Positions 26,391-40,842 are shown, counted from the first letter of the stretch. The stretch: DNA of 50,429 nt from Candidatus Saccharimonadota bacterium (GCA_016282495.1 JAEEKR010000005.1:1-50429); one strand, 5' to 3'. Notes: a model not told the origin generated them from the letters alone. A program made the numbers and translations.

Positions 26391-29300
26391 ATGAAAGAAA
26401 CTATACTAAGATTAACCGTTGGCAATGGCGACAATGGTTCCAACCAGGGTGACAACCAGGGTCAAAGTGGTAACCAAAGTCAGAATAGCAACCAAGGCCA
26501 ACAAGGCACCGACAGCGGCCAAAACGGACAACAAAATCAAAACGAACAACAGGGCCAAAATGAACAGCAAGGCCAAACTGGTGGCAGCTCGCAACAAAAT
26601 AGTGAGACCCAACAGGAGGGCCAAAGCGGATTAAATGTCCCAAATACTGGTTTTATGGGAGGGATCTCGGCACATGGGGCTGAGACTTTCTTTTTTGGAT
26701 TTGCTCTAATCATTGCTATTTCTGTTTTAATTATTAAACTTATTGCAAAGTCAAAAAAACGCGAAGAAAGCAAGGCTGTTAAACCACTGTCAATTTTGCT
26801 TCTGTTTTCTGTTTTTGGTGGCCTAGCCATAAAGGCTTGTAACAGTTTTGCTGATTCAACGAATCTTAGCATTTCAACTAAAGAGAATATCGATTTAGAG
26901 CTAAGCGAAGAGACTGATACATTTAATATTTATTGTGGTACGGACGAAATCGTGGTTGATGATCCCACAGAACATGGATATAAACTATTTCTCAAAACAA
27001 ACAATGATGGCAAGATGGTTTCTGGTAGTGGGAATGCGATTAATTCTGTAAGTGAATGGGGCGAGCTTTCGTCAAATACTTGGGGGTTCAATAGCAATAC
27101 TGAGTCCGAAAAACAAAACTTCGAATCAGCACCGATTGAAGACCGAATTATCATTAATAAAAATTACGAGACTGGAGATGATGATAAGGTTTACGCAAAT
27201 TATTGCGTAAAGACCGCGAAAGATTTGGCTGATGGCGTATACGAAGTGAAATTGTCTTATCTAGCAACAGCGAACAATCCAAGGCTCGGTATACCAGATC
27301 CAGAAAACTTGGATCCGTATGAAGATTCCGATAATGATGGTGTTTTGAACTGGGAGGAAGAAAAATATAACTTAAACTCTTTGTCTGCTGACAGCGATTT
27401 AGATAGCTTGTCTGATTATGATGAGCTCTTTATGCATGGCACTGATCCGCTGGTTGCTGATTCTGATGGAGATGGGATGACTGATTATTCGGAAGTTGAG
27501 CTGGCTGACCAGGGCTTTAGCCCTACAGAAATCAACAATACCGAAACACCTGTAACCTACACCGTTGAAGAAGGTGATGTGACGATGACAATTAGCGGAA
27601 CTGGGAATATTCCTGAATCTTCGTGTGCCATTATCCCGGCTAGCACGTTTTCAAATAGTGCTGGGGCAGTTCCAAAGCTTTACGATTTTTCTACTCCAGG
27701 CCAAATGACCGGTGCAGATGTTTCTATTAAAATCGCAACTGAAGATCTGGGCGATCTTAATGCTGAAGGTTTAACCCTTTATTATATTGATTATGAAAAC
27801 AAAACGCTTGAAACGATAGCGACAAATGTCACTACGATAGAAGATGGAGCAATTTTATCTGCTCATCTTGATCATTTTTCAGGGTTCTTTGCTGGCCTAA
27901 AAAACAAAATCCAAGATTTTGTTCATCGACTATTTCACAAAGATGAAGAACAACCGGAAAACCCACTTGACCCTAACGAGCCAATGGGGCCTTTCCCTAA
28001 ATTAGCCACTGTCAATATTGCGATTGATGACTCTTGGTCTATGTATAGCGAACAACAGGCTGAGGATATGGAAATGACATGCGCGGATGGTGAGGATGGG
28101 TGTTTAGCAAATGATCCAGAATTTAAGCGAATTGATTTTGTTAATGATCTTTTGAATAGACTTGAAAACGGAGGTGGTCTTGAAGAGCATGTTGCGGTTA
28201 GCTTCTTTTCTACAGGCAGTAGCTCTGCTAGTATGAACAAATATAACTGCGTGATAGCCCCAGGTCACGTTATAGATATCTACGACATGCCAAACTTTGA
28301 CGAATATTGTTATGACAAAACGTCCTACGAAAATGCAAAGCGGTTTATAAATGATTATCAAAATGGTATATGGCCAGCATCTTATTATAGTGTCCATGGT
28401 AGTGCAGATACTTGGCTCGATGAAGCAGTGAGTTCTGGTGATGCAGTTCATGAATTTGATGAAATAAATGGATCTGCTGACTACTACGTAAGGGGGAATA
28501 ACTATATCATAATACTTTCTGATGGATGGGATAATTCTGGTTTTGACGAAGAAGCTATTGAATATCTCATTTCAAACTACTTGGAATTTAAAGAAGATAC
28601 TACTGTTATTACTATTGGCGTCGGAAATAATATCAACGAGGGACTCTTAAGAAAAATTGCCGAGATTGGTAACGGAAAGTATTATCATATTAATGACGCC
28701 TCAGCGATTAATGAGATTGTAAACAATATAAAGCATGGCGATAAATTTATCCCTGGTGTAGATATTGATGGGGATGGAATACCTGACGTAGCCGAACTTA
28801 CTCGTACTAATTTTAGACCGGAAGTGGATGGTTTTTCATTCAAAAATTATAGATCGATCGAAACGGGGGGTCATTGTTACGGCATGGCAGCTTTTGCAGA
28901 GTTATATTACACACAAAGATTGCCTCAAAGCGTTGGAGAGATAGACCAGTTTGATGATTCTGGAATAGAAGTTTCATCTGGCGATATGACATCGCATTCT
29001 TATGCGTTCGATTTCCAAAATACTTACTTTTCAAATTTTGGCGCCTTATATAATTACAATCTGAATAATAGTACATTAGTCGATGTTATAAATGGTAAAT
29101 GGTATGATCATGTGCTAGATGAAACAACATATACTTTGAGGATGAGAGACGAGGACAAAAACGCACTGACTAGTACTGGCATTATAGATGTCGTTCCTAT
29201 GCCTTATACACCAACAAGTTATGAACAGATGTTAGAAGAATTTGGTTCGCCTATTAGCGCAATCGAACGACCTATATTAAATGAAGGAAAAATGCAAAGC

Positions 29301-29756
29301 GCGCAGACAACTATAGTTAATGATGAAGAAAAGCAATTATTAAATGCGCTTCTTGCTTTGCAAATTCAACAAGATGGGATAGAAATCATTTCGTCATCTG
29401 AAGACGCCCCACATAATTATGATAGGGATTTCCTCAATACTCTAATCGACAGGATTGATGATGACGTGCCAGCAGTAATATCGTCATACAACCACGCTGT
29501 AAACGCTATAAATATCATAGAAGATTTGCACGATCATAACCGTTATTACGTCGGGATATATAATAGCAATTTTCCTGGTCAAATTAGTATCTTTACTATG
29601 AGATGTAGCAAAATAAGCTGCTTGACTGAGGATTATGATTTTGGAGAAAGCGCGCTAAAGGACGGAAGCGATTTCTATATGGATGGTAGACCACTATTTA
29701 TGCCCAAATCTCTCGATGAAGAAGTAAACTATTTTAACCGAGCAAACAATAATTAG
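26391..29756 (+). CDS. Giant surface protein: TSP3-type Ca repeats, VWA domain, papain-like domain, 1121 aa
   Basis: Order of parts: a Gln/Asn/Gly-rich stretch (9-78); NVPNTGFMGG plus a hydrophobic helix and KSKKREE (about 82-128), which looks like a sortase tail; a second hydrophobic helix resembling a signal peptide (about 132-152); a beta-rich domain; calcium-binding thrombospondin-3-like repeats (DSDNDGVLNWEEE, DSDGDGMTDYSE, about 310-375); a VWA domain with MIDAS DDSWS (546-550) and LSDGWDNSG; another DIDGDGIPD repeat; and a C-terminal domain with GGHCYGMAAF (Cys829), HAVNAINII (His1035) and YNSNFPG, the spacing of a papain-like Cys-His-Asn triad. Probably a surface adhesin or transpeptidase-like enzyme. 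It is followed after 23 bases by the stand-alone Hint gene. Confidence 0.85.
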   Translation: MKETILRLTVGNGDNGSNQGDNQGQSGNQSQNSNQGQQGTDSGQNGQQNQNEQQGQNEQQGQTGGSSQQNSETQQEGQSGLNVPNTGFMGGISAHGAETFFFGFALIIAISVLIIKLIAKSKKREESKAVKPLSILLLFSVFGGLAIKACNSFADSTNLSISTKENIDLELSEETDTFNIYCGTDEIVVDDPTEHGYKLFLKTNNDGKMVSGSGNAINSVSEWGELSSNTWGFNSNTESEKQNFESAPIEDRIIINKNYETGDDDKVYANYCVKTAKDLADGVYEVKLSYLATANNPRLGIPDPENLDPYEDSDNDGVLNWEEEKYNLNSLSADSDLDSLSDYDELFMHGTDPLVADSDGDGMTDYSEVELADQGFSPTEINNTETPVTYTVEEGDVTMTISGTGNIPESSCAIIPASTFSNSAGAVPKLYDFSTPGQMTGADVSIKIATEDLGDLNAEGLTLYYIDYENKTLETIATNVTTIEDGAILSAHLDHFSGFFAGLKNKIQDFVHRLFHKDEEQPENPLDPNEPMGPFPKLATVNIAIDDSWSMYSEQQAEDMEMTCADGEDGCLANDPEFKRIDFVNDLLNRLENGGGLEEHVAVSFFSTGSSSASMNKYNCVIAPGHVIDIYDMPNFDEYCYDKTSYENAKRFINDYQNGIWPASYYSVHGSADTWLDEAVSSGDAVHEFDEINGSADYYVRGNNYIIILSDGWDNSGFDEEAIEYLISNYLEFKEDTTVITIGVGNNINEGLLRKIAEIGNGKYYHINDASAINEIVNNIKHGDKFIPGVDIDGDGIPDVAELTRTNFRPEVDGFSFKNYRSIETGGHCYGMAAFAELYYTQRLPQSVGEIDQFDDSGIEVSSGDMTSHSYAFDFQNTYFSNFGALYNYNLNNSTLVDVINGKWYDHVLDETTYTLRMRDEDKNALTSTGIIDVVPMPYTPTSYEQMLEEFGSPISAIERPILNEGKMQSAQTTIVNDEEKQLLNALLALQIQQDGIEIISSSEDAPHNYDRDFLNTLIDRIDDDVPAVISSYNHAVNAINIIEDLHDHNRYYVGIYNSNFPGQISIFTMRCSKISCLTEDYDFGESALKDGSDFYMDGRPLFMPKSLDEEVNYFNRANNN

Positions 29757-29779
29757 TTAATTAACAAGAAAGGAGAGAA

Positions 29780-30505
29780 ATGACAAAATTCAACGAATTC
29801 CCTGCTCTGGCTACTGGCGGATGTTTGCTTGAGGGGACAATGGTCAAGATGGCTGATGGGTCGGAAAGGCCAATCGAACAAATTACTTACCATGATTATC
29901 TACTAGTCTGGAGTTATGCCGAAGGAAAAGCCGTAGCAAGGCAACCAATTTGGATCGAAAAAGAAGCCACGGCGACGTCATATCAAGTGAGCGAATTTAG
30001 TGATGAGTCAAAGCTTGAGACAGTGATCGGTCACGGAGTCTTTAACGTTGATTTTAATCGTTTTGTTAATCTTGATAACGAAAAAGAATTTCATGTTGGA
30101 ACGCGGATTTATAAGCTTGGCGAAGATCAAAAATTAAAAGCGGTGGAGGTAACTAATATTTCCAAAGTTGAAAAGACCGTTAAGTACTATCATGTGGTTT
30201 CGACTGAATTTTACAATATTTTTGCAAACGGTTTTTTAACCACCGATGATGAAGTATTGCTCTCTAATCTTTATGGTTTTGACGATCAAGTGAGATGGTT
30301 ACCATCACGCAACGAAATTATAAAAGATAAAAATAATCTTTATGATTATGCGGATTTTACTTTTATGCCAAGATGGATGTTTGACGGGTTAAGAGTAGAA
30401 GAAGGTAAGTATTTGGATACTATTGGTATTTTGCCGAAAGATATTTTTATTGAATACCTAAAAAATAACCAAATGAATCCAGAATTGTATTTGCCAAGAG
30501 AATAA
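29780..30505 (+). CDS. Stand-alone Hint (hedgehog/intein-type) domain protein, 241 aa
   Basis: After only 14 residues comes Cys15 in GGCLLEGTMVKMADGSERPI, the block A of Hint autoprocessing domains. GHGVF supplies the block B His, and YYHVVSTEFYNIFANGFL matches block F. The usual C-terminal His-Asn is replaced by TTDD, so full splicing is not expected; an N-to-S acyl shift with N-terminal cleavage or transfer, as in hedgehog proteins, is possible. About 90 further residues (NEIIKDKNNLYDYADF, MFDGLRVEEGKYLD) are shared with the Hint end of the protein at 33494; both modules are exactly 227 residues from Cys to the C-terminus. AAAGGAGAG gives strong translation. No signal peptide is seen. Confidence 0.85.
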   Translation: MTKFNEFPALATGGCLLEGTMVKMADGSERPIEQITYHDYLLVWSYAEGKAVARQPIWIEKEATATSYQVSEFSDESKLETVIGHGVFNVDFNRFVNLDNEKEFHVGTRIYKLGEDQKLKAVEVTNISKVEKTVKYYHVVSTEFYNIFANGFLTTDDEVLLSNLYGFDDQVRWLPSRNEIIKDKNNLYDYADFTFMPRWMFDGLRVEEGKYLDTIGILPKDIFIEYLKNNQMNPELYLPRE

Positions 30506-30529
30506 TTGGGATATTTTTTAGCATAACCG

Positions 30530-30557
30530 TTGACAAATTTTAAAATGCGTGTATCAT
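30530..30557 (+). promoter_or_regulatory. Promoter of the TasA-like / SipW operon
   Basis: TTGACA (30530-30535), 16 bases, TATCAT (30552-30557), with a leader that contains AAAAGGAA before the ATG at 30596. Confidence 0.65.
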
Positions 30558-30595
30558 AATAAACATAAGTATATAAAAATAAAAAAGGAATTTTT

Positions 30596-31261
30596 ATGGC
30601 AACAAAGAAAAAAGCATCAACTAAGACTGCGAAAGTGGCTCGTCCTAAGGCCGCTGGATCAGCCAAGGGGGCCGCAAGGAAGACTGCGAAAAAACGCAAT
30701 CCTCAGAATATTGCCATCATTGCGCTTGCTGCAGCGTTGGTATTTATGGGCATTGGTTTCGCTGCCTATAGCGCCACTCTCACGATCGGTAGCGGTCTCA
30801 ACAACACTGACGTTATAGTCAGACCAGCTACTTGGGGCATTTGTTGGGAAGATACAACAATTACCGGAACGGGTAGCGGTACGGGAACAGGTCAAGTCTC
30901 TCGTGATAGTTGTACCGCCGTTACATTTAATGCTACGTTAAACAAACCTGGTGATTCTTACTCCTTTACGGTTAACGCTGAAAACACTGGTACTATCGAT
31001 GCAAAACTAACAGCGATTACGATGACTGCACTTACCGCAGATCAAGCTAAGTACCTAGAATACACAGTAAGTTACAATGGCACAACATATAACGCTTCGA
31101 CCAGCAATCTTAATATCGCTCTAAATGCGACCGCAAAAGCGCCGGTTATAGTGACTGTCAGATACAAAGCCGTCAGCGAAACGAACCAAGGCGATTATCC
31201 TAATACTCAGCAAGAAATAACATTAAGCGCCTCCTTTGATTACGCAGAAGCAGCTAACTAA
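30596..31261 (+). CDS. TasA/camelysin-like SipW-dependent surface subunit, 221 aa
   Basis: A very basic 34-residue N-terminus rich in Lys, Ala and Arg precedes one hydrophobic helix (about 37-56, IAIIALAAALVFMGIGFAAY) ending in the SipW-type cleavage context GFAAYSATLTIGS. The mature part is a Thr/Asn-rich beta-sandwich candidate with a single cysteine pair (WGICWED, SRDSCTAV). This matches TasA/CalY-type fibre subunits processed by SipW, whose gene follows 17 bases later. The long cationic leader is unusual. It opens an operon that runs to 35698. Confidence 0.75.
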   Translation: MATKKKASTKTAKVARPKAAGSAKGAARKTAKKRNPQNIAIIALAAALVFMGIGFAAYSATLTIGSGLNNTDVIVRPATWGICWEDTTITGTGSGTGTGQVSRDSCTAVTFNATLNKPGDSYSFTVNAENTGTIDAKLTAITMTALTADQAKYLEYTVSYNGTTYNASTSNLNIALNATAKAPVIVTVRYKAVSETNQGDYPNTQQEITLSASFDYAEAAN

Positions 31262-31278
31262 TAATACTTAGGAACTTT

Positions 31279-32433
31279 GTGAAGAGGAATGAGAAAACTA
31301 TTGTTATAATTAGTGCTTTGTTGACTATTTTGGCAACAATCATCCTCTTCACACCACATTTATCAAGCACATTAAAAACCATACTAGAAATAGGACTAAC
31401 TGCACTATTTGCAATTATTGCAAATAACCTATTAAAACCACATAAAGCTAACCGGTCATATGCCAGAATCGCAACTAAGACCGTGGCTATTATATTAATA
31501 GCGGCTTTAATTGTAAGCTTTAATGTTGGTCTAGTTGTCGGATTCACGCGTACGCTCTTCCCTCCAAGTTTTGAAAAAATCTTGTACGGGATATTGCCGA
31601 CTATAGGGATAATCATAGTTTCAGAGTTTTTGCGAAAGATCATCGTTGGTAGCGCATACGAAAACAAATTAATGCTAACACTGATTACGATTGCATTAAT
31701 TATAGTTGGGCTTTCCGTCGAGACACATTTAGCGACGATTAATTCTGTGGAATCAGCCTTTATCGTAACGTGTACCGCTATTTTACCAGTAGTGGCAGAG
31801 GGGCTGCTTTCAACTTACCTCATGAAACGAGCTGGCATGATGCCAGCGTTGGTTTATAGATTGACGAGAGGATTGTATTTATATCTCTTACCAATTGCGC
31901 CGGCTTTCAGCCAATATCTTTATTCGGTTTTGTGGTTAGTCATACCATATTTAGTTTATTACTTAGCAAGACATGATTTGCCGGACGAGATAGTAAAACA
32001 GGGTGGTAAAATTGATAAGTCTAAAAACAATGTCAAAAGAAACCTTTCGATCATCACCGTTCCAATTCTCGTTTTTCTAATAACTCTAACCGTGCTAGTC
32101 TCTGGGTTATTTCGTTACAAAATGATAGCGGTTGCTAGCGGTTCTATGTCGCCAATATTTGATCGTGGTGATGCCGTGATTTATGATAAAGAAAGCTCCC
32201 TTGAACCTGGTGACGTAATGGCATTTATGCATGGTGGCGAAATCATAACACACAGAATAATTGATATTAAGAAAGACGGCAAGAAAAAAGTATATTATAC
32301 TAAAGGTGATGCTAATCCTACTGCAGATAACTATGAAGTAATGGAAAGTCTAGTCCTCGGCAAGGTTACTTGCATCATCAAATATGTTGGCTTCCCAACA
32401 GTATGGTTTAACGAAGCTATAGGAAATCTATAA
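31279..32433 (+). CDS. SipW-type signal peptidase I fused to a polytopic membrane domain, 384 aa
   Basis: The C-terminal third is an S26 signal peptidase of the ER/archaeal/SipW type: ASGSMSPIFDRGDAVIY with catalytic Ser289, and GEIITHRIID with His325 in place of the bacterial Lys, then KGDANPTADNYEV. The first 230 residues carry about seven hydrophobic helices, far more than the usual SipW. The start is GTG with AGGA five bases upstream. It lies between the TasA-like gene and a DUF5305-like gene with almost no gaps, so it should process the SipW-type leaders encoded on both sides. The multi-helix part could be a transport or chaperone module; that is inference. Confidence 0.88.
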   Translation: MKRNEKTIVIISALLTILATIILFTPHLSSTLKTILEIGLTALFAIIANNLLKPHKANRSYARIATKTVAIILIAALIVSFNVGLVVGFTRTLFPPSFEKILYGILPTIGIIIVSEFLRKIIVGSAYENKLMLTLITIALIIVGLSVETHLATINSVESAFIVTCTAILPVVAEGLLSTYLMKRAGMMPALVYRLTRGLYLYLLPIAPAFSQYLYSVLWLVIPYLVYYLARHDLPDEIVKQGGKIDKSKNNVKRNLSIITVPILVFLITLTVLVSGLFRYKMIAVASGSMSPIFDRGDAVIYDKESSLEPGDVMAFMHGGEIITHRIIDIKKDGKKKVYYTKGDANPTADNYEVMESLVLGKVTCIIKYVGFPTVWFNEAIGNL

Positions 32434-32434
32434 C

Positions 32435-33493
32435 ATGAAAGAAGAATTAAACCCCCCAAAAAGAATAACAGTAAAACTGGTACTAATCAGTCTGCTTTTC
32501 GTATTTGGTGTTGTCGTATTTCTTATTGGCTTCAGAAATGACAATAACGAAATTATATTCAAATCGACTGGCAACAACTCGGTCGATTATCGAGTTTTTC
32601 TTAAGGAGAATGGCTTCTTCGACGAGCCTTTCCTAGGGCCAGGAAAAACATATATTACGAGTTTAATTGATCATATAGATGTTGATTTTAAATATACTGA
32701 GAGGTTTACAGAGGAAGCAAGTGGTTCAAGCACATATTACTTGAAAGCCGTCATTAGCGCAGACAAAACAGACAATCCAACTGAAACCGGAGAATACTGG
32801 TCAAAGGAGTATCGTTTAACTGACCCAGCAACAATTGAATTTGATAAATCCAATCAGTCTGATATTAATACGTCAATATCAATAGATTATTCCTACTATA
32901 ATTCAATTCTAGAAAGCTTCCGCAGCGAATATCCAGTGGCTTCGGACGGTACGATAAAGATTTCGCTTGTAGTAGAAAACTATGTTAATGCCGAATCGTT
33001 CAGCGAGCCACTAAAATTTGATTCGGAGCTCAATCTTAGCTTGCCGCTACTTGAAAAAGCCGTCGAAGCCAAAATTGATGTTGAAACTGGCAACCAATCA
33101 CATGAATTTAAAACAAATCCCAAAGCAACAAATCCGATTTACACATTTATTAAGATAATAGGTGGCGGAATAATGTTTGCCTCGGTTGCTTTAGCTATAG
33201 TCGTAGTTTTAAAAAGACGTTCTTTCATAAACCACCATCAGTATATTTCCACTTTAGAAAAAATACTTGATGCAAATGATAGTATTATTACGAATATCGA
33301 AAATATGCCAAATCTCAATAAATTCCAAAAGTTTGAGGTAAAAACATTTGAAGAGCTTCTCGATGCTTATAGTGAAATTAGATTACCAATTAACTTTTAC
33401 CAGAATAAAAACGGAACTGAGAGCACTTTCTTTATCACTAACGAAGGCATTGCTTGGATTTACCATCTTAAAAAACGTAATCTTGGATCTTAA
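32435..33493 (+). CDS. DUF5305-like membrane protein, 352 aa
   Basis: An N-terminal helix (about 13-33) and a second helix (about 237-258) bracket an external domain with VDYRVFLKENGFFDEPFLGP, KTYITSLIDHIDVDFKYT and EYWSKEYRL, which fits the DUF5305 family often found beside SipW-type peptidases. About 90 cytoplasmic residues follow. The gene starts one base after the peptidase stop and ends flush against the next gene, so it belongs to the same operon. A role in assembling or holding the surface subunit is likely by context. Confidence 0.7.
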   Translation: MKEELNPPKRITVKLVLISLLFVFGVVVFLIGFRNDNNEIIFKSTGNNSVDYRVFLKENGFFDEPFLGPGKTYITSLIDHIDVDFKYTERFTEEASGSSTYYLKAVISADKTDNPTETGEYWSKEYRLTDPATIEFDKSNQSDINTSISIDYSYYNSILESFRSEYPVASDGTIKISLVVENYVNAESFSEPLKFDSELNLSLPLLEKAVEAKIDVETGNQSHEFKTNPKATNPIYTFIKIIGGGIMFASVALAIVVVLKRRSFINHHQYISTLEKILDANDSIITNIENMPNLNKFQKFEVKTFEELLDAYSEIRLPINFYQNKNGTESTFFITNEGIAWIYHLKKRNLGS

Positions 33494-35698
33494 ATGAGAA
33501 AAAGCGCAAAAAAGAAAACAGCTTCAATAAAGGGTGAGCTTATAGTTTTTTTGTGTTTCATTTTCGTATTGACTGGCATGACAATTGGATTTGCAAGTTA
33601 TTCTGCCTTGATAAGAACTCAAGGTGTAATAACAGTAAAACCACAAGGGATTGTACATTTTACACAACTAGATTTAATTAGCTATTCTAATGTGGATACA
33701 AGTTATCAACCAAGCTTTACAGATACTGACCTAGATTTTAATCTTCATTTTGCCGAAGGTTCTTCGACCGATCCGTATAGTGCGACTTATCAAATAACTG
33801 TCCAAAATGATACTTTTTCCAACCAAACTTTTCTTGGAGTAAACTATAGTCCTACCATTATAGACGGACAAGGCTCGCCCGTGCCATCTACAAATTTTAG
33901 CTATACGATTGATGGGCTATCGGAAGGAGATGTCATTGCGGTAGGATCATCAGTCACTTTTACTGTAACTATGACAATGAATGTAAACAGTGGTGATTAC
34001 GTTGTGGATGGTGAGGCTACAATTACAACAGAAGAAAACGACGATGAACCTATCGGTAGCATCCTAGCCGCACTTAAAGGAGCTACTACCGGTGATCTAA
34101 GGGGAAGCAACATACGTGCTCCGTTCATTGCGCACGTCATAAACACTCACAACACTGCTCAAACATTTAATTTATTGCTAAATAGCAATGTCATGTCTCG
34201 ATATAAATTGACGGACGCAAACGGAAACGCTCTTGGCGCATTAAATATTCCCGCAAATGTCGAAGGTGATTTTGTTTTCTACATTGAACGTTTGAGTGGC
34301 GTAACTTTCTGTACGGACTCAGAAAGCACTATGGTTTCCCTTCTTTCCACTAATAATGAACGTACTAATGTTGGTATCACTACTCTTTTAGTGGACGAAA
34401 ATCCATCTTGCAATGATAATGAACCTCCTGTGATTTCTGGAGTTACTATAACTCAAAAAACTGGCTCAGGCTCGGACGGCAAAGCAGATGTTAGCTGGTC
34501 TGGAACAGACACTTCGGCAATAGTTAACTACACTGTTGCGATTTATGATTCGAATAACAATTTAGTTGGAAATCCGTATAATACCGGTGATGATAGTACT
34601 ACGATGACAATTACCGGTTTAAATGCAGGTACATACTATGCTAAGGTTTATGGCGAGGATGCAGTCGGTAACAAAGCGTCGTCTTCAGACATTAGTAGTT
34701 GCTCGACCGCGTCGGGATACTGTTCTCGTTCAAATAGCGTAGCGATGAAATGGAATTATAGTGTAACCTATAACCTGACCAATATCACCTCTTCCAATAC
34801 AACTAGAACGGTGTTGATTGGCACTACATATACAACAACTCTCAGTGCTAATAGCACCTTCACCGCTCAAAGAAGACTGCCAGACTCAATAACGGTGGTG
34901 ATGGGAGGTGCGACTTTGCCGACTAGCCAATATACCTATAATAGCTCGAGTGGAGCAGTATCAATTCCAAATGTTTCAGGAGATATTGAAATCACCGCGC
35001 AAGCGACTAGTACCTGCTTAATCGAAGGGACGATGATTAAAATGGCAGATGGATCAGAAAAACCAATTGAAGATATAACTTATGATGATTCCCTTTTGGT
35101 TTGGAGTTATGAAGAAGGTAAAACTGTTTCAAGAAAACCAGTTTGGATCGAAAAGAAAGCCGAAACAACAACCTATCAATTAAATGAGTTTAGCGATGGC
35201 ACGACGCTTAAAACTTTTGGTGGCCACGGCGTATTTAGTATAGAGCTAAATCGTTTCGTATCGGTCGATAATCGCGAAGAATTTTATGTTGGTATGCATA
35301 TTTATAAATTAAATGATGCTAATAAGCTCGAGCCAGTTGAAGTCACAAAGATATCCACTATTAAAGAATCTACTAAATACTACCATGTGGTTTCGACTGA
35401 GTTTTACAACATTATTGCGAACAGTTTACTCACGACCGATGATATGGTTATTCTTTCCAATTTGTATGGCTTTGACGAAGAAGTTAAATGGCCGTCTCTT
35501 CGAAATGAAATAATAAAAGATAAGAATAATCTTTATGATTATGCAGATTTTGATTTTATGCCAAAATGGATGTTTGACGGGCTTCGCGTGGAGGAGGGTA
35601 AGTATCTTGATATGTTAGGAATTATACCAAAGGAGTTATTTGTTGAATATCTTAAGACTAATCAATTAAATCCAGAGATGTATTTGCCGAAAGAATAA
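33494..35698 (+). CDS. Surface protein with SipW-type leader, Fn3-like domain and C-terminal Hint module, 734 aa
   Basis: A basic start and hydrophobic helix (about 14-35) end in IGFASYSA, the same SipW-type leader as the TasA-like subunit. Beta-rich domains follow (about 45-310), then a fibronectin-III-like domain (EPPVISGVTITQ, about 312-400), then a repeat-type domain (YSVTYNLTN, about 418-505). At Cys508 (TSTCLIEGTMIKMADGSEKP) a Hint domain starts, with GHGVF and YYHVVSTEFYNIIANSLL, and runs to the C-terminus for 227 residues, as in the stand-alone protein at 29780. The terminal His-Asn of inteins is absent, so cleavage or ligation at Cys508 is more plausible than splicing. It begins directly after the preceding stop. 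Confidence 0.85.
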   Translation: MRKSAKKKTASIKGELIVFLCFIFVLTGMTIGFASYSALIRTQGVITVKPQGIVHFTQLDLISYSNVDTSYQPSFTDTDLDFNLHFAEGSSTDPYSATYQITVQNDTFSNQTFLGVNYSPTIIDGQGSPVPSTNFSYTIDGLSEGDVIAVGSSVTFTVTMTMNVNSGDYVVDGEATITTEENDDEPIGSILAALKGATTGDLRGSNIRAPFIAHVINTHNTAQTFNLLLNSNVMSRYKLTDANGNALGALNIPANVEGDFVFYIERLSGVTFCTDSESTMVSLLSTNNERTNVGITTLLVDENPSCNDNEPPVISGVTITQKTGSGSDGKADVSWSGTDTSAIVNYTVAIYDSNNNLVGNPYNTGDDSTTMTITGLNAGTYYAKVYGEDAVGNKASSSDISSCSTASGYCSRSNSVAMKWNYSVTYNLTNITSSNTTRTVLIGTTYTTTLSANSTFTAQRRLPDSITVVMGGATLPTSQYTYNSSSGAVSIPNVSGDIEITAQATSTCLIEGTMIKMADGSEKPIEDITYDDSLLVWSYEEGKTVSRKPVWIEKKAETTTYQLNEFSDGTTLKTFGGHGVFSIELNRFVSVDNREEFYVGMHIYKLNDANKLEPVEVTKISTIKESTKYYHVVSTEFYNIIANSLLTTDDMVILSNLYGFDEEVKWPSLRNEIIKDKNNLYDYADFDFMPKWMFDGLRVEEGKYLDMLGIIPKELFVEYLKTNQLNPEMYLPKE

Positions 35699-36845: not shown

Positions 36846-39800
36846 ATGAGAATTAACGCGTTAAATTATTATGCACGAAGAAGATTGCTTTTTGCCGCAA
36901 TTGCATTTTTGACCTTAGGAGCAATTGGTTTTATTAACCTTACGGGTGGTCGTATTTGGGCGGACAGGACTGGAATGACAGAACTGTCATTTTCTAGCTC
37001 AATTTTTTGTTCGAGCGTGTCTCAAGCTATAAACGAAAGCTTAAGCGGAACAGACGAAACGGGAAGAGTAGATGGTGGCGATTGTACAAATAATAAGTTG
37101 TATGTGTCTAGCGATGATATCGAAAGCATATATACGTTAAATATTGCACCGCCACCAGACGGCTTCGGTGATATAAACTTTGATACACAATCTATATCAA
37201 TTGGAGGAGATTGGGTATGGGCATTTAGTAATCTGACTGAATTGTCAATCACTGGCATGTACGTAGATAATATTTCTCCTCTTCGAGGTATTAGTGGAAA
37301 TCTGGAGAAGCTAGACCTGTCTAACAACCGTATATCAGATATAACACCACTAATAGCGTTAAAAGATGAGCTGATCAGTTTGACTCTTTCTGGTAATCCT
37401 GTTGGCGCTGGTGACGGAATACGCGTTTTGAGCAGATTTACAAAGTTGCGTAAGTTAGAATTAGTAGATACGGGGCTAATCTCTATCGATGAGCTATTTC
37501 GACCAGCAGATATCGAAATAGAATACAATGAAGAGACTGGTGAAATATCTGGCATCTATGATTCTGAAACGAACGAACGTTTGGAAAAGGTTCCACGCAG
37601 TTCAAATTTGGCGAAAACATTGGAAATATTTAATATGAGCGATAATAAAGACTTATCAAGTGAGCGAGAGGAAGATGCCAGGACTGGTATGTGCGACGGC
37701 AATTTGATGCCATTCTTGAATTATCCGATAAGCAAAGAAGACACCGGATATCCAGAGTTGGCGGAAAATACAAATAAACTAGCGCTAAAAACTTTGTATG
37801 CTAACAATGATAATCTGAATTCAGATGATCTATTCTGCGTGACTAAACTTGATTTGGAAAAATTAACCGTAAATGCAAATCATATTGATGATTTTAGCCC
37901 AATCAGAAATAAAACATATCAAACACTAGATGCGGAAAGACAAGTTTATACAAGAAGAGTGTCCGGGTTGGACTACGGTCCGCTACCACAAATATTTTAC
38001 CAGGTGCGGCAACAAAATTTTATCCCTGGAGTACAAGGTGGTTCAAATCCATCGATTTCTAACTTCATGATAGGTAGTAATGCCCAGTTGAGGAATAATG
38101 GTACCACGGTGAGATTTAGAAATGCCGCAATTGCATCAGAATTAAATGAAGACCCACGGCCAGCCACAATCTCCTTGCCAGGTAATTCCGAAAACGGCGG
38201 TATTTTTTGGGGTTCGCGCTTAGAATTATACTTCACTGGGCAGGTAGTAACATTTAACGATTCTAACTTGTGTAATATGGTCTATAACCAAGGCGACACT
38301 CTAAGGGCGTTCATCGACGAAGATGGTGTTCAAACCGTAGATGAGCCAGTCGTATTAACAAATGCTTGTAACGAAACGAAAAAACAAATCGCAATGATAT
38401 CCGAGGGTTCATATAGGTTCTTGCGTCTAGAGTTGGACAACATAAATAACGGGCAATTAGTCGATTTAACTGGGTTAGAAGAATTTAACAATCTGCAAAT
38501 ATTGAAATTATCTGGTAATGGTTTGATTGATCTGGATAAAATATCGGGCGCTACCTCACTGCGCCAACTTGAGTTAAATGATAATAATTTGGGAAATGAC
38601 GATTGGCCAACTATCACAAACAACTTTACCAATCTAGGAATACTATATCTAAACAATAACCATATGAACGAAATCTCGACAAATATTTCAAACTTGAGTG
38701 TTCTCGGGAACCTTTATCTGGTAAACAATGGAATTAGTGATGTATCTCCGTTAGCTTATGCTTCTACCTTAACTGTGCTAGATTTAAGCGAAAATAGTTT
38801 GATTACAGATTTCTCCGGTTTAGTCCAAGAGAGTAGTTCATGTCGACCATCTCTTTTAAAGATTGAAAATGCAGGGATAACTAGATTACCAGATGCTAGC
38901 ACGACAAAGATAATGTTTTCGAATCTATTAAGTCTAAACCTGAATGGCAATTTCATCACTAGCGAAACAATTGCCAATCTAACAGCAGACACTGCGCCGA
39001 GATTAGGCGAACTATACTTGAATAACAACAGAATTAGCGACACATCGACTTTTAGTGGGATAACAACATTAAGAAAGCTCTTCTTGGATAACAACCAAAT
39101 CGAAAACGTGGCAGGGTTAATATCTTTGGATAGACTTGCAGAACTTCATTTAAATGGAAATAATATTAGCGATATAACTGGCCTTAATACTCTACCTTCT
39201 TTAGCGATACTAGATTTAAAAAACCAGACATTGACGGGTAGCCTAGGTGATAATTCAGATACATATGTCCTGCCAGATTTATTTTCACAGGCAACTGATA
39301 TGGAATTTCCAAGAATAAGCGGGTTCCAATCATCTGGTGATTACGACATAGATAATGGTCGCATAGGTTATTTAAATTTAAGTCTGGCAGCGATAATAGA
39401 TGACAACTCAAAGCCAATGATCGTGACAATACCAGATGGAGGTTTAGCTGGGACAAAACTAAAAGTTGTATACACCGGAGGTAGCAGTGGTGGCGGTGAT
39501 GAATGGGAGTTTGCGAACACCTTAATAGATAACACTAGAGGCGGAGCAACGATTATTCCAACCTCAACAAATACATTCACCGTTTCCAGTGATTTAACTT
39601 GCATGGCATTACTAACTCAGGATAACAGGACGACTTGGACACGACTTGCTTCAAACCCTCTTACTAATGGTCACGAGTTTAATACTAATCAAATTACTGG
39701 GGCCGAAATAGTTGTAGCGTATGCTGGAGACGTAAACTCTGATTATAGCGTCAATATAAGAGATGCTAGAAAAATTATAACTGTAATTTTGGGAAAAGAT

Positions 39801-39917
39801 TCTATAACTAGTCTTCAAGAAGAACTTGCCAATGTCGATGGTAAGGGTGGAATAAATATTAGAGATGTAAGAGCGTTAATAAAAAGTATCCTGGGGACAG
39901 GCGAAATAAATTGGTAA
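36846..39917 (+). CDS. Secreted leucine-rich-repeat protein with C-terminal dockerin, 1023 aa
   Basis: A signal peptide (about 11-38, RRRLLFAAIAFLTLGAIGFI) leads to two blocks of internalin-like LRRs, for example LEKLDLSNNRISDITPL (about 155) and a longer array from about 535 to 800 with LGILYLNNNHMNEIS, LTVLDLSENSLITD and LAELHLNGNNISDITGL. The last 65 residues hold a type I dockerin: GDVNSDYSVNIRDARKII and NVDGKGGINIRDVRALI, two Ca-binding loop-helix motifs. The 14-base gap to the cohesin-like gene suggests both are made together and bind each other. There is no strong Shine-Dalgarno; the leader is A-rich. Confidence 0.9.
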   Translation: MRINALNYYARRRLLFAAIAFLTLGAIGFINLTGGRIWADRTGMTELSFSSSIFCSSVSQAINESLSGTDETGRVDGGDCTNNKLYVSSDDIESIYTLNIAPPPDGFGDINFDTQSISIGGDWVWAFSNLTELSITGMYVDNISPLRGISGNLEKLDLSNNRISDITPLIALKDELISLTLSGNPVGAGDGIRVLSRFTKLRKLELVDTGLISIDELFRPADIEIEYNEETGEISGIYDSETNERLEKVPRSSNLAKTLEIFNMSDNKDLSSEREEDARTGMCDGNLMPFLNYPISKEDTGYPELAENTNKLALKTLYANNDNLNSDDLFCVTKLDLEKLTVNANHIDDFSPIRNKTYQTLDAERQVYTRRVSGLDYGPLPQIFYQVRQQNFIPGVQGGSNPSISNFMIGSNAQLRNNGTTVRFRNAAIASELNEDPRPATISLPGNSENGGIFWGSRLELYFTGQVVTFNDSNLCNMVYNQGDTLRAFIDEDGVQTVDEPVVLTNACNETKKQIAMISEGSYRFLRLELDNINNGQLVDLTGLEEFNNLQILKLSGNGLIDLDKISGATSLRQLELNDNNLGNDDWPTITNNFTNLGILYLNNNHMNEISTNISNLSVLGNLYLVNNGISDVSPLAYASTLTVLDLSENSLITDFSGLVQESSSCRPSLLKIENAGITRLPDASTTKIMFSNLLSLNLNGNFITSETIANLTADTAPRLGELYLNNNRISDTSTFSGITTLRKLFLDNNQIENVAGLISLDRLAELHLNGNNISDITGLNTLPSLAILDLKNQTLTGSLGDNSDTYVLPDLFSQATDMEFPRISGFQSSGDYDIDNGRIGYLNLSLAAIIDDNSKPMIVTIPDGGLAGTKLKVVYTGGSSGGGDEWEFANTLIDNTRGGATIIPTSTNTFTVSSDLTCMALLTQDNRTTWTRLASNPLTNGHEFNTNQITGAEIVVAYAGDVNSDYSVNIRDARKIITVILGKDSITSLQEELANVDGKGGINIRDVRALIKSILGTGEINW

Positions 39918-39930
39918 AAGAAAGGAAAAA

Positions 39931-40842
39931 ATGAAAATACAAAAACGCAAAACACATAAAATAATTAGAAAAATTCCGACTCGGATAGGTTTGGCCGTAT
40001 TAGGAACACTTTTCTTGGTCGGAAATATTTGGATGGTTTACCGCTTTACACAAGCGAGTGCATCTGATTATAGCCTGACGACGGCCAACGTTGTACTTGA
40101 TGGGACACATGATGGCTCTGCGACTATATATCTTAGGACGTCAACAGCCAGAACTTATGTTACGCTTCAGGGTACGTGGTCACCTAAAGAGGTTGGTTCA
40201 ACATCATATCTTAGTATAACAGGTCTGCAACGAGGTGAATCAATGACAAGTGTTACGGACTTTTACCCTACTACTGGGATTGGTGCATGGACGCCGACTG
40301 ATGATGTTGGTATGGCGGTGCCGGCAAACGGACGAGTGATGGCCGCCACCTATAAAGTTGACAAAAATACCCCGGCTGGGAACTATACCATTAGGTTCAA
40401 TAATGCAGTTTTCGACTATGATGTCAATGGGACCGATGTAGAGGAAACCGACGAGATAAACTTGACCACAACAGTCAGTGTAACGAGAAATACGTCTGGT
40501 GGAAATACTACAGGTGGTGGTAATACGACTGGCGGGAACAATACGACTGGCAGTAATGGCACTAGCGTAGATCCTGGTAACAATGGTGGAAGCACAGGTG
40601 GTAATGGCACTAGCGTAGATCCTGGTAACACTGGTGGAAGCACAGGTGGTAATGCAAATAATAGTACAGATGCCAGTGGTAAAAACGGAACTGCTGTACC
40701 AAATACGGGTATCGGCGAGAATGGCGATGATTCAAGCGCGACAGTAGTCTCAGTTGTATCGATTATCGCTGCAGCTATCTTACTACCAATGACAGTAGTC
40801 GAAATCAAGAGTCGTAAAAAGAAAGTTGGCTTTAACAAATAA
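39931..40842 (+). CDS. Cohesin-like protein with VPNTG sorting-type tail, 303 aa
   Basis: A basic N-terminus and helix (about 18-40) lead into a beta-rich domain (about 45-185) with STSYLSITGLQRGESM, GRVMAATYKVDKNTPAG and NYTIRFNNAVFDYDVNG; this ending resembles cohesin modules. A Gly/Asn/Thr-rich linker contains two near-identical 16-residue repeats. Then come AVPNTGIGENG, a helix (about 272-292) and a basic end (IKSRKKKVGF), the layout of a sortase substrate with VPNTG in place of LPXTG. It is probably the anchored receptor for the dockerin of the preceding LRR protein; cohesin identity is inference from pattern and neighbour. AAAGGA lies before the ATG. Confidence 0.75.
   Translation: MKIQKRKTHKIIRKIPTRIGLAVLGTLFLVGNIWMVYRFTQASASDYSLTTANVVLDGTHDGSATIYLRTSTARTYVTLQGTWSPKEVGSTSYLSITGLQRGESMTSVTDFYPTTGIGAWTPTDDVGMAVPANGRVMAATYKVDKNTPAGNYTIRFNNAVFDYDVNGTDVEETDEINLTTTVSVTRNTSGGNTTGGGNTTGGNNTTGSNGTSVDPGNNGGSTGGNGTSVDPGNTGGSTGGNANNSTDASGKNGTAVPNTGIGENGDDSSATVVSVVSIIAAAILLPMTVVEIKSRKKKVGFNK
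40558..40653 (+). repeat. Tandem 48-bp repeat in the cohesin-like gene linker
   Basis: Two adjacent 48-base units (40558-40605 and 40606-40653) differ at one base and each encodes GTSVDPGN(N/T)GGSTGGN. Unit number could vary between strains. Confidence 0.9.

Follow-up and report, generated by a model that had tools for sequence, protein, structure and literature searches.

What a Hint (autoprocessing) module does at the C-terminus of a bacterial surface protein, and why a second copy stands alone a few genes upstream, is the question raised by a 50,429-nt stretch of DNA from an uncultured gut Candidatus Saccharimonadota bacterium (GCA_016282495.1, JAEEKR010000005.1:1-50429; hereafter the window). 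A sequence-only reading had placed both copies in a SipW/TasA-like surface operon and proposed that they cleave or covalently attach surface ectodomains through a thioester, as an alternative to sortase. Both open reading frames stand as first described, one with its Cys at residue 15 and the other at residue 508, and the two modules are indeed homologous (69% identity), each running 227 residues from Cys to stop (Table 1). The 730-kb assembly contains no third copy, the window pair being the only one. In the longer protein, which is adhesin-like and secreted, a beta domain directly precedes the module; the proposed surface setting is supported.

Table 1. Features of the two Hint genes and their surroundings, in window coordinates.
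Feature	Position	Strand	Remarks
vWA/TSP3 protein	26391..29756		
Shine-Dalgarno AAGGAG of the stand-alone Hint gene	29770..29775	+	4 bases before ATG; read in the sequence
Stand-alone Hint gene	29780..30505	+	241 aa; 14 residues ahead of Cys; no signal peptide or TM
Hint core, stand-alone protein	29822..30247	+	Cys codon 29822-29824; block-B His codon 30032-30034; aligned to the structure model
Helical C-terminal extension, stand-alone protein	30248..30502	+	
Promoter-like site ahead of the four-gene cassette	30530..30557	+	TTGACA-16-TATCAT, 11/12 consensus matches; consensus match only
TasA-like secreted subunit	30596..31261	+	221 aa; weak assignment, only by resemblance in signal peptide and motif
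Signal peptidase I, archaeal/SipW type	31279..32433	+	384-aa membrane protein; TIGR02228 90 bits vs cut-off 51.85
DUF5305 membrane protein	32435..33493	+	PF17231 42 bits vs cut-off 29
Surface protein	33494..35698	+	734 aa; N-terminal TM/signal (aa 16-34), string of beta domains including an fn3-like domain, C-terminal Hint module
Hint core, surface protein	35015..35440	+	Cys508 codon 35015-35017; Thr67 35213-35215; block-B His71 35225-35227
Asp142 of the surface-protein Hint core	35438..35440	+	Position of the intein terminal Asn
Helical C-terminal extension, surface protein	35441..35695	+	Conserved Asn149, Tyr151, Arg191, Glu194 (module numbering)
Leucine-rich-repeat protein with dockerin, and the cohesin-like protein after it	36846..40842		

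The assignment to the Hint superfamily, which a single-sequence Pfam search approached only weakly (Hom_end_hint, E 0.006, below cut-off), is borne out by profile and by predicted structure. A profile search matched Tetrahymena BIL2 (6y75, E 4.6e-8), the closest solved relative by this measure, and the DP2 intein (5bkh, E 3.8e-5). An AlphaFold model built from a 20-row alignment of the module (pLDDT 91.4, pTM 0.87) is all-beta over residues 1-141 and helical over residues 145-223; a horseshoe-shaped all-beta Hint fold is predicted with high confidence. The best Foldseek match is hedgehog (1at0, E 5e-10), and model residues 1-142, the whole Hint domain, score a Z of about 16 against hedgehog, BIL domains and inteins in VIA; BIL2 6y75, a RecA mini-intein and the Clostridium BIL 2lwy are among the structural relatives found by the two methods. 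Structure matches, together with profile matches obtained from sequence alone, therefore make the Hint assignment firm.

The module also has viral relatives. Hint core and extension together close tail-fibre-like proteins on 56 contigs of uncultured viruses, found by a DNA motif scan, a profile, and a second scan with alignment (E down to about 1e-35 over core plus extension); a scan of viral contigs with overly specific patterns had come back empty. Where the end lies on the contig (55 viral modules), the protein stops 197-227 residues past the Cys, and the domains recognised in these hosts are baseplate/tail-fibre connector, collagen and LamG. The tree parts viral from Saccharibacterial modules, each group on a side of its own, with support of 100/100. 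Searched against isolated-phage and plasmid collections, the window module gave chance-level matches only, and the viral-type module two weak Pseudoalteromonas matches. Three viral contig proteins (L136, L131, L134) carry two or three tandem Hint domains with HN-x-x-CF junctions, an arrangement different from that of the window module. Distant Hint domains are likewise found in other, mostly large Saccharibacterial and Patescibacterial proteins (L045, L046, L047, L074, L076-L085), for the most part without a match to the extension.

Across an alignment of 79 modules the Cys1 nucleophile, the block-B His71 and Gly93 are each invariant (79/79). Block B reads TxxxH, as against the TxxH of the Hint superfamily: its Thr lies at -4 instead of -3 in 71 of the 79, and the block-B Thr of BIL2 pairs with module Thr67 in the profile alignment only if a gap of one residue is admitted. 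At the far end the His-Asn of inteins is missing, as first noted, with Thr-Asp in its place in both window modules; residue 142 is Asp in 18 Saccharibacterial modules and Asn in 3, viral copies mostly having Cys, Asn or Met there, and the downstream junction has neither a conserved His-Asn nor a conserved nucleophile. Because this ending is absent, splicing is unlikely and Asn cyclisation is not expected. The module differs here from type A BIL domains, from inteins, which have a penultimate His and a terminal Asn followed by Cys, Ser or Thr, and from Tetrahymena BUBL BIL2 (6y75, 6tmm), which retains its C-terminal Asn and lies within a ubiquitin-like polyprotein locus. A degenerate intein or splicing element would explain the Hint fold, but the module ends the protein, most members have no downstream extein, and the His-Asn, the conserved +1 nucleophile and any homing endonuclease are all missing; we rejected this reading on the anatomy of the module and give it very little credence.

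What is left resembles BIL domains of type B, in the Hint fold, the N-terminal Cys, the block-B His, the lack of a C-terminal His-Asn and the occurrence in variable secreted bacterial proteins. Blocks A and B are present with altered spacing and the C-terminal motif is absent; the conserved helical extension, the usual position at the very end of the protein and the TxxxH block B set the module apart. B-type BIL domains, in which the C-terminal motif is missing, cleave at their own N-terminus (PMC7765530). Our preferred reading, to which we assign a probability of about 0.5, is that the Hint module and its helical extension are autocatalytic, with a thioester at the Cys, N-terminal self-cleavage as in type B BIL or Hog domains, and the extension as regulator. 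The module probably cuts the surface protein in front of it, attachment being less likely. By an N-S acyl shift in which His71 assists, the Hint core would turn the peptide bond before Cys508 into a thioester. Attack by water or some other small nucleophile would then resolve this thioester once the protein has folded and release the ectodomain immediately ahead of the Cys, with neither splicing nor a cut driven by Asn at the module's far end. The extension probably packs against the core, where it would control access to the thioester or its timing. For the window protein, cleavage would trim the module off the adhesin; where a relative has a membrane segment after the module, the ectodomain would be released from its anchorage at the C-terminus.

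In inteins, a small residue before the Cys favours the N-S shift, Pro at this position blocks N-terminal cleavage, and beta-branched residues slow it. Most Saccharibacterial hosts have a small residue here (Gly, Ser, Thr or Ala), with Trp in one Saccharibacterial clade; the 37 distinct viral N-junctions have Ile in 17 cases, Pro in 9, Leu in 5 and Val in 3. Some members may therefore not cleave, and the wealth of Ile and Pro in viral junctions makes a non-cleaving structural cap the main rival. The module would then be a C-terminal end piece of fibres and adhesins, for assembly, trimerisation or protection, with Cys and His kept for structure or for a reversible thioester. Such a cap would fit the viral fibre proteins, as the module always terminates them 197-227 residues from the Cys and Ile or Pro precedes the Cys in most, and it also agrees with an extension that is retained as tightly as the core and, in the stand-alone copy, has changed less than the core. 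It fits less well with a Cys and a His that are invariant in all 79 modules although much of the core varies, or with the autocatalysis of well-studied Hint relatives. We regard a purely structural role as possible and on the whole somewhat unlikely.

The extension invites comparison with hedgehog. It comprises about 85 helical residues that form a single conserved unit together with the core, and its Asn149, Tyr151, Arg191 and Glu194 are retained in 75-77 of the 79 modules. The proposed conserved C-terminal extension, placed like the hedgehog adduct-recognition region, is supported. The module shares with Hog the arrangement of a secreted protein that closes with a Hint domain and, behind this, an extension. 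Unlike Hog, the module is prokaryotic and viral, a sterol partner is not expected, and the extension has no detected relation to the sterol-recognition region; fold comparison, in which the alignments scarcely pass residue 144, listed no known fold for it, which is not a sign that it has none. The alignment with a predicted Hint protein of a giant virus (Gaeavirus, BFVD) spans 207 columns and reaches into the extension. In hedgehog-like attachment the thioester would pass to a nucleophile bound by the extension (a cell-wall amine, a sugar, a lipid or some other protein), leaving the ectodomain covalently attached to it. The extension does occupy the position of the hedgehog sterol-recognition region behind Hint (PMC7906309), the conserved polar residues Asn149, Arg191 and Glu194, together with the surface setting of the host, suit such a role, and beta-branched viral junctions would make thioesters hydrolysis-resistant; no acceptor is known, however, the extension has no visible kinship with that region, the genome has three sortases of its own, and other copies of the cassette lack Hint. 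We consider attachment unlikely, and doubt still more a broader version in which the family is a prokaryotic and viral counterpart of hedgehog whose extension presents a nucleophile to the thioester, so that adhesins and tail fibres become joined C-terminally to a surface or particle component.

Conservation of the tail bears on one further reading, in which Hint cuts off what stands behind it, as a polymorphic-toxin releasing peptidase. Hint domains are so used just before toxin domains (PMC3482391), and in both cases they lie close to the C-terminus of big secreted proteins. Here, by contrast, nothing toxin-like follows the Hint domain, the tail is conserved and not variable, and an immunity-like neighbour was not seen; we rejected toxin release on this anatomy and hold it to be highly improbable.

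The stand-alone gene probably does not belong to the SipW operon in which it had been placed, since it begins 23 bp behind a vWA/TSP3 gene with its own Shine-Dalgarno and is parted from the cassette by a promoter-like site, one of a class no commoner in the region than chance (22 found, 21 expected). A tie to the upstream vWA gene was considered and rejected: five other genomes of the genus contain vWA relatives, and none of the five has a Hint host. In the vWA/TSP3 protein, which has matches on three further contigs of the same genome, a PNTG-like motif and a TM segment lie close to the N-terminus (about aa 84-118), not the C-terminus. The stand-alone module keeps 24 of the 26 positions invariant in other modules. 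Over the 227 codons of the paralogue pair, changes fall at third (118), first (56) and second positions (26), a pattern that indicates purifying selection; dN between the two is 0.20, with synonymous change saturated. Recent gene conversion between the two copies was considered and is not shown: third-position identity is uneven but low throughout (0.35-0.60). In the tree the copy joins a small clade with the hosts of the window, G261, G202 and G406 (100/99), on a longer branch and with the order within the clade left open, and no stand-alone copy was found in the other genomes searched. Judged by its sequence, it is an intact, old, selected paralogue and not a recent fragment. With only 14 residues ahead of the Cys it would have no exported substrate of its own, and it may act in the cytoplasm or via its extension, which has changed less than the core (amino acid identity to orthologues 0.72-0.80 vs 0.62-0.64).

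The SipW/TasA context holds in part. A signal peptidase and a DUF5305 protein do adjoin the Hint host, in the gene set of SipW/TasA-type export cassettes, but the peptidase scores 65 bits with the SipW model (NF046067), below its 190-bit cut-off, and the TasA-like subunit is so called by resemblance only, having no Pfam or NCBIfam match and, in a PDB profile search, AbpX at E 0.49. The cassette runs in the order TasA-like subunit, signal peptidase, DUF5305 protein and, last, Hint host. Of 174 genomes of the genus, 26 encode the ectodomain, and every one of these also has Hint, so the two make up one protein family. A general link of Hint to SipW/TasA is not upheld by this survey of related genomes: only 5 of the 26 Hint-host genomes have the cassette (window, G261, G202, G341 and G406), plus three in a sister genus (L036-L038), and the remaining hosts that were inspected lie by themselves and have what looks like an ordinary signal peptide. 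Conversely, cassettes in G283, G469 and a second locus of G202 are without Hint, their surface protein being about 430-450 aa. The Hint-less cassettes comprise four genes (TasA-like, signal peptidase, DUF5305, surface protein; L232, L233 and L235), and G202 has one cassette of each kind. Since cassettes exist without Hint and Hint hosts without cassettes, we take Hint to be an optional end module of one surface protein and not part of the export machinery. Some hosts continue past the module, with about 100 extra residues including a TM and charged tail (L029-L032, L034) or with a further beta-looking domain (the sister-genus hosts).

As for an alternative to sortase, the idea finds no support in a genome with three sortases and a window that itself contains PNTG-type sorting signals. 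Farther downstream, the window encodes a 1023-aa internalin-like leucine-rich-repeat protein ending in a type I dockerin, the sole one in the genome. Immediately after it comes a secreted protein of 303 aa, cohesin-like by eye and without a Pfam or PDB match, which carries a VPNTG-TM-KSRKKK sorting signal; it is possible that the two form a cohesin-dockerin pair on the Saccharibacterial surface.

Hint, BIL and Hog domains are already known. New is a Hint-plus-extension family with a C-terminal place, common to Saccharibacterial surface proteins and viral fibres and absent from Pfam, which has no model for it, and from the literature searched, in which we found no paper joining the Hint domain or SipW with Saccharibacteria and no report of a C-terminal Hint in tail fibres. 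Saccharibacteria live attached to other bacteria, and the finding bears on how such episymbionts anchor or shed their adhesins; the family would give adhesins and phage fibres alike a C-terminus that cuts or attaches itself.
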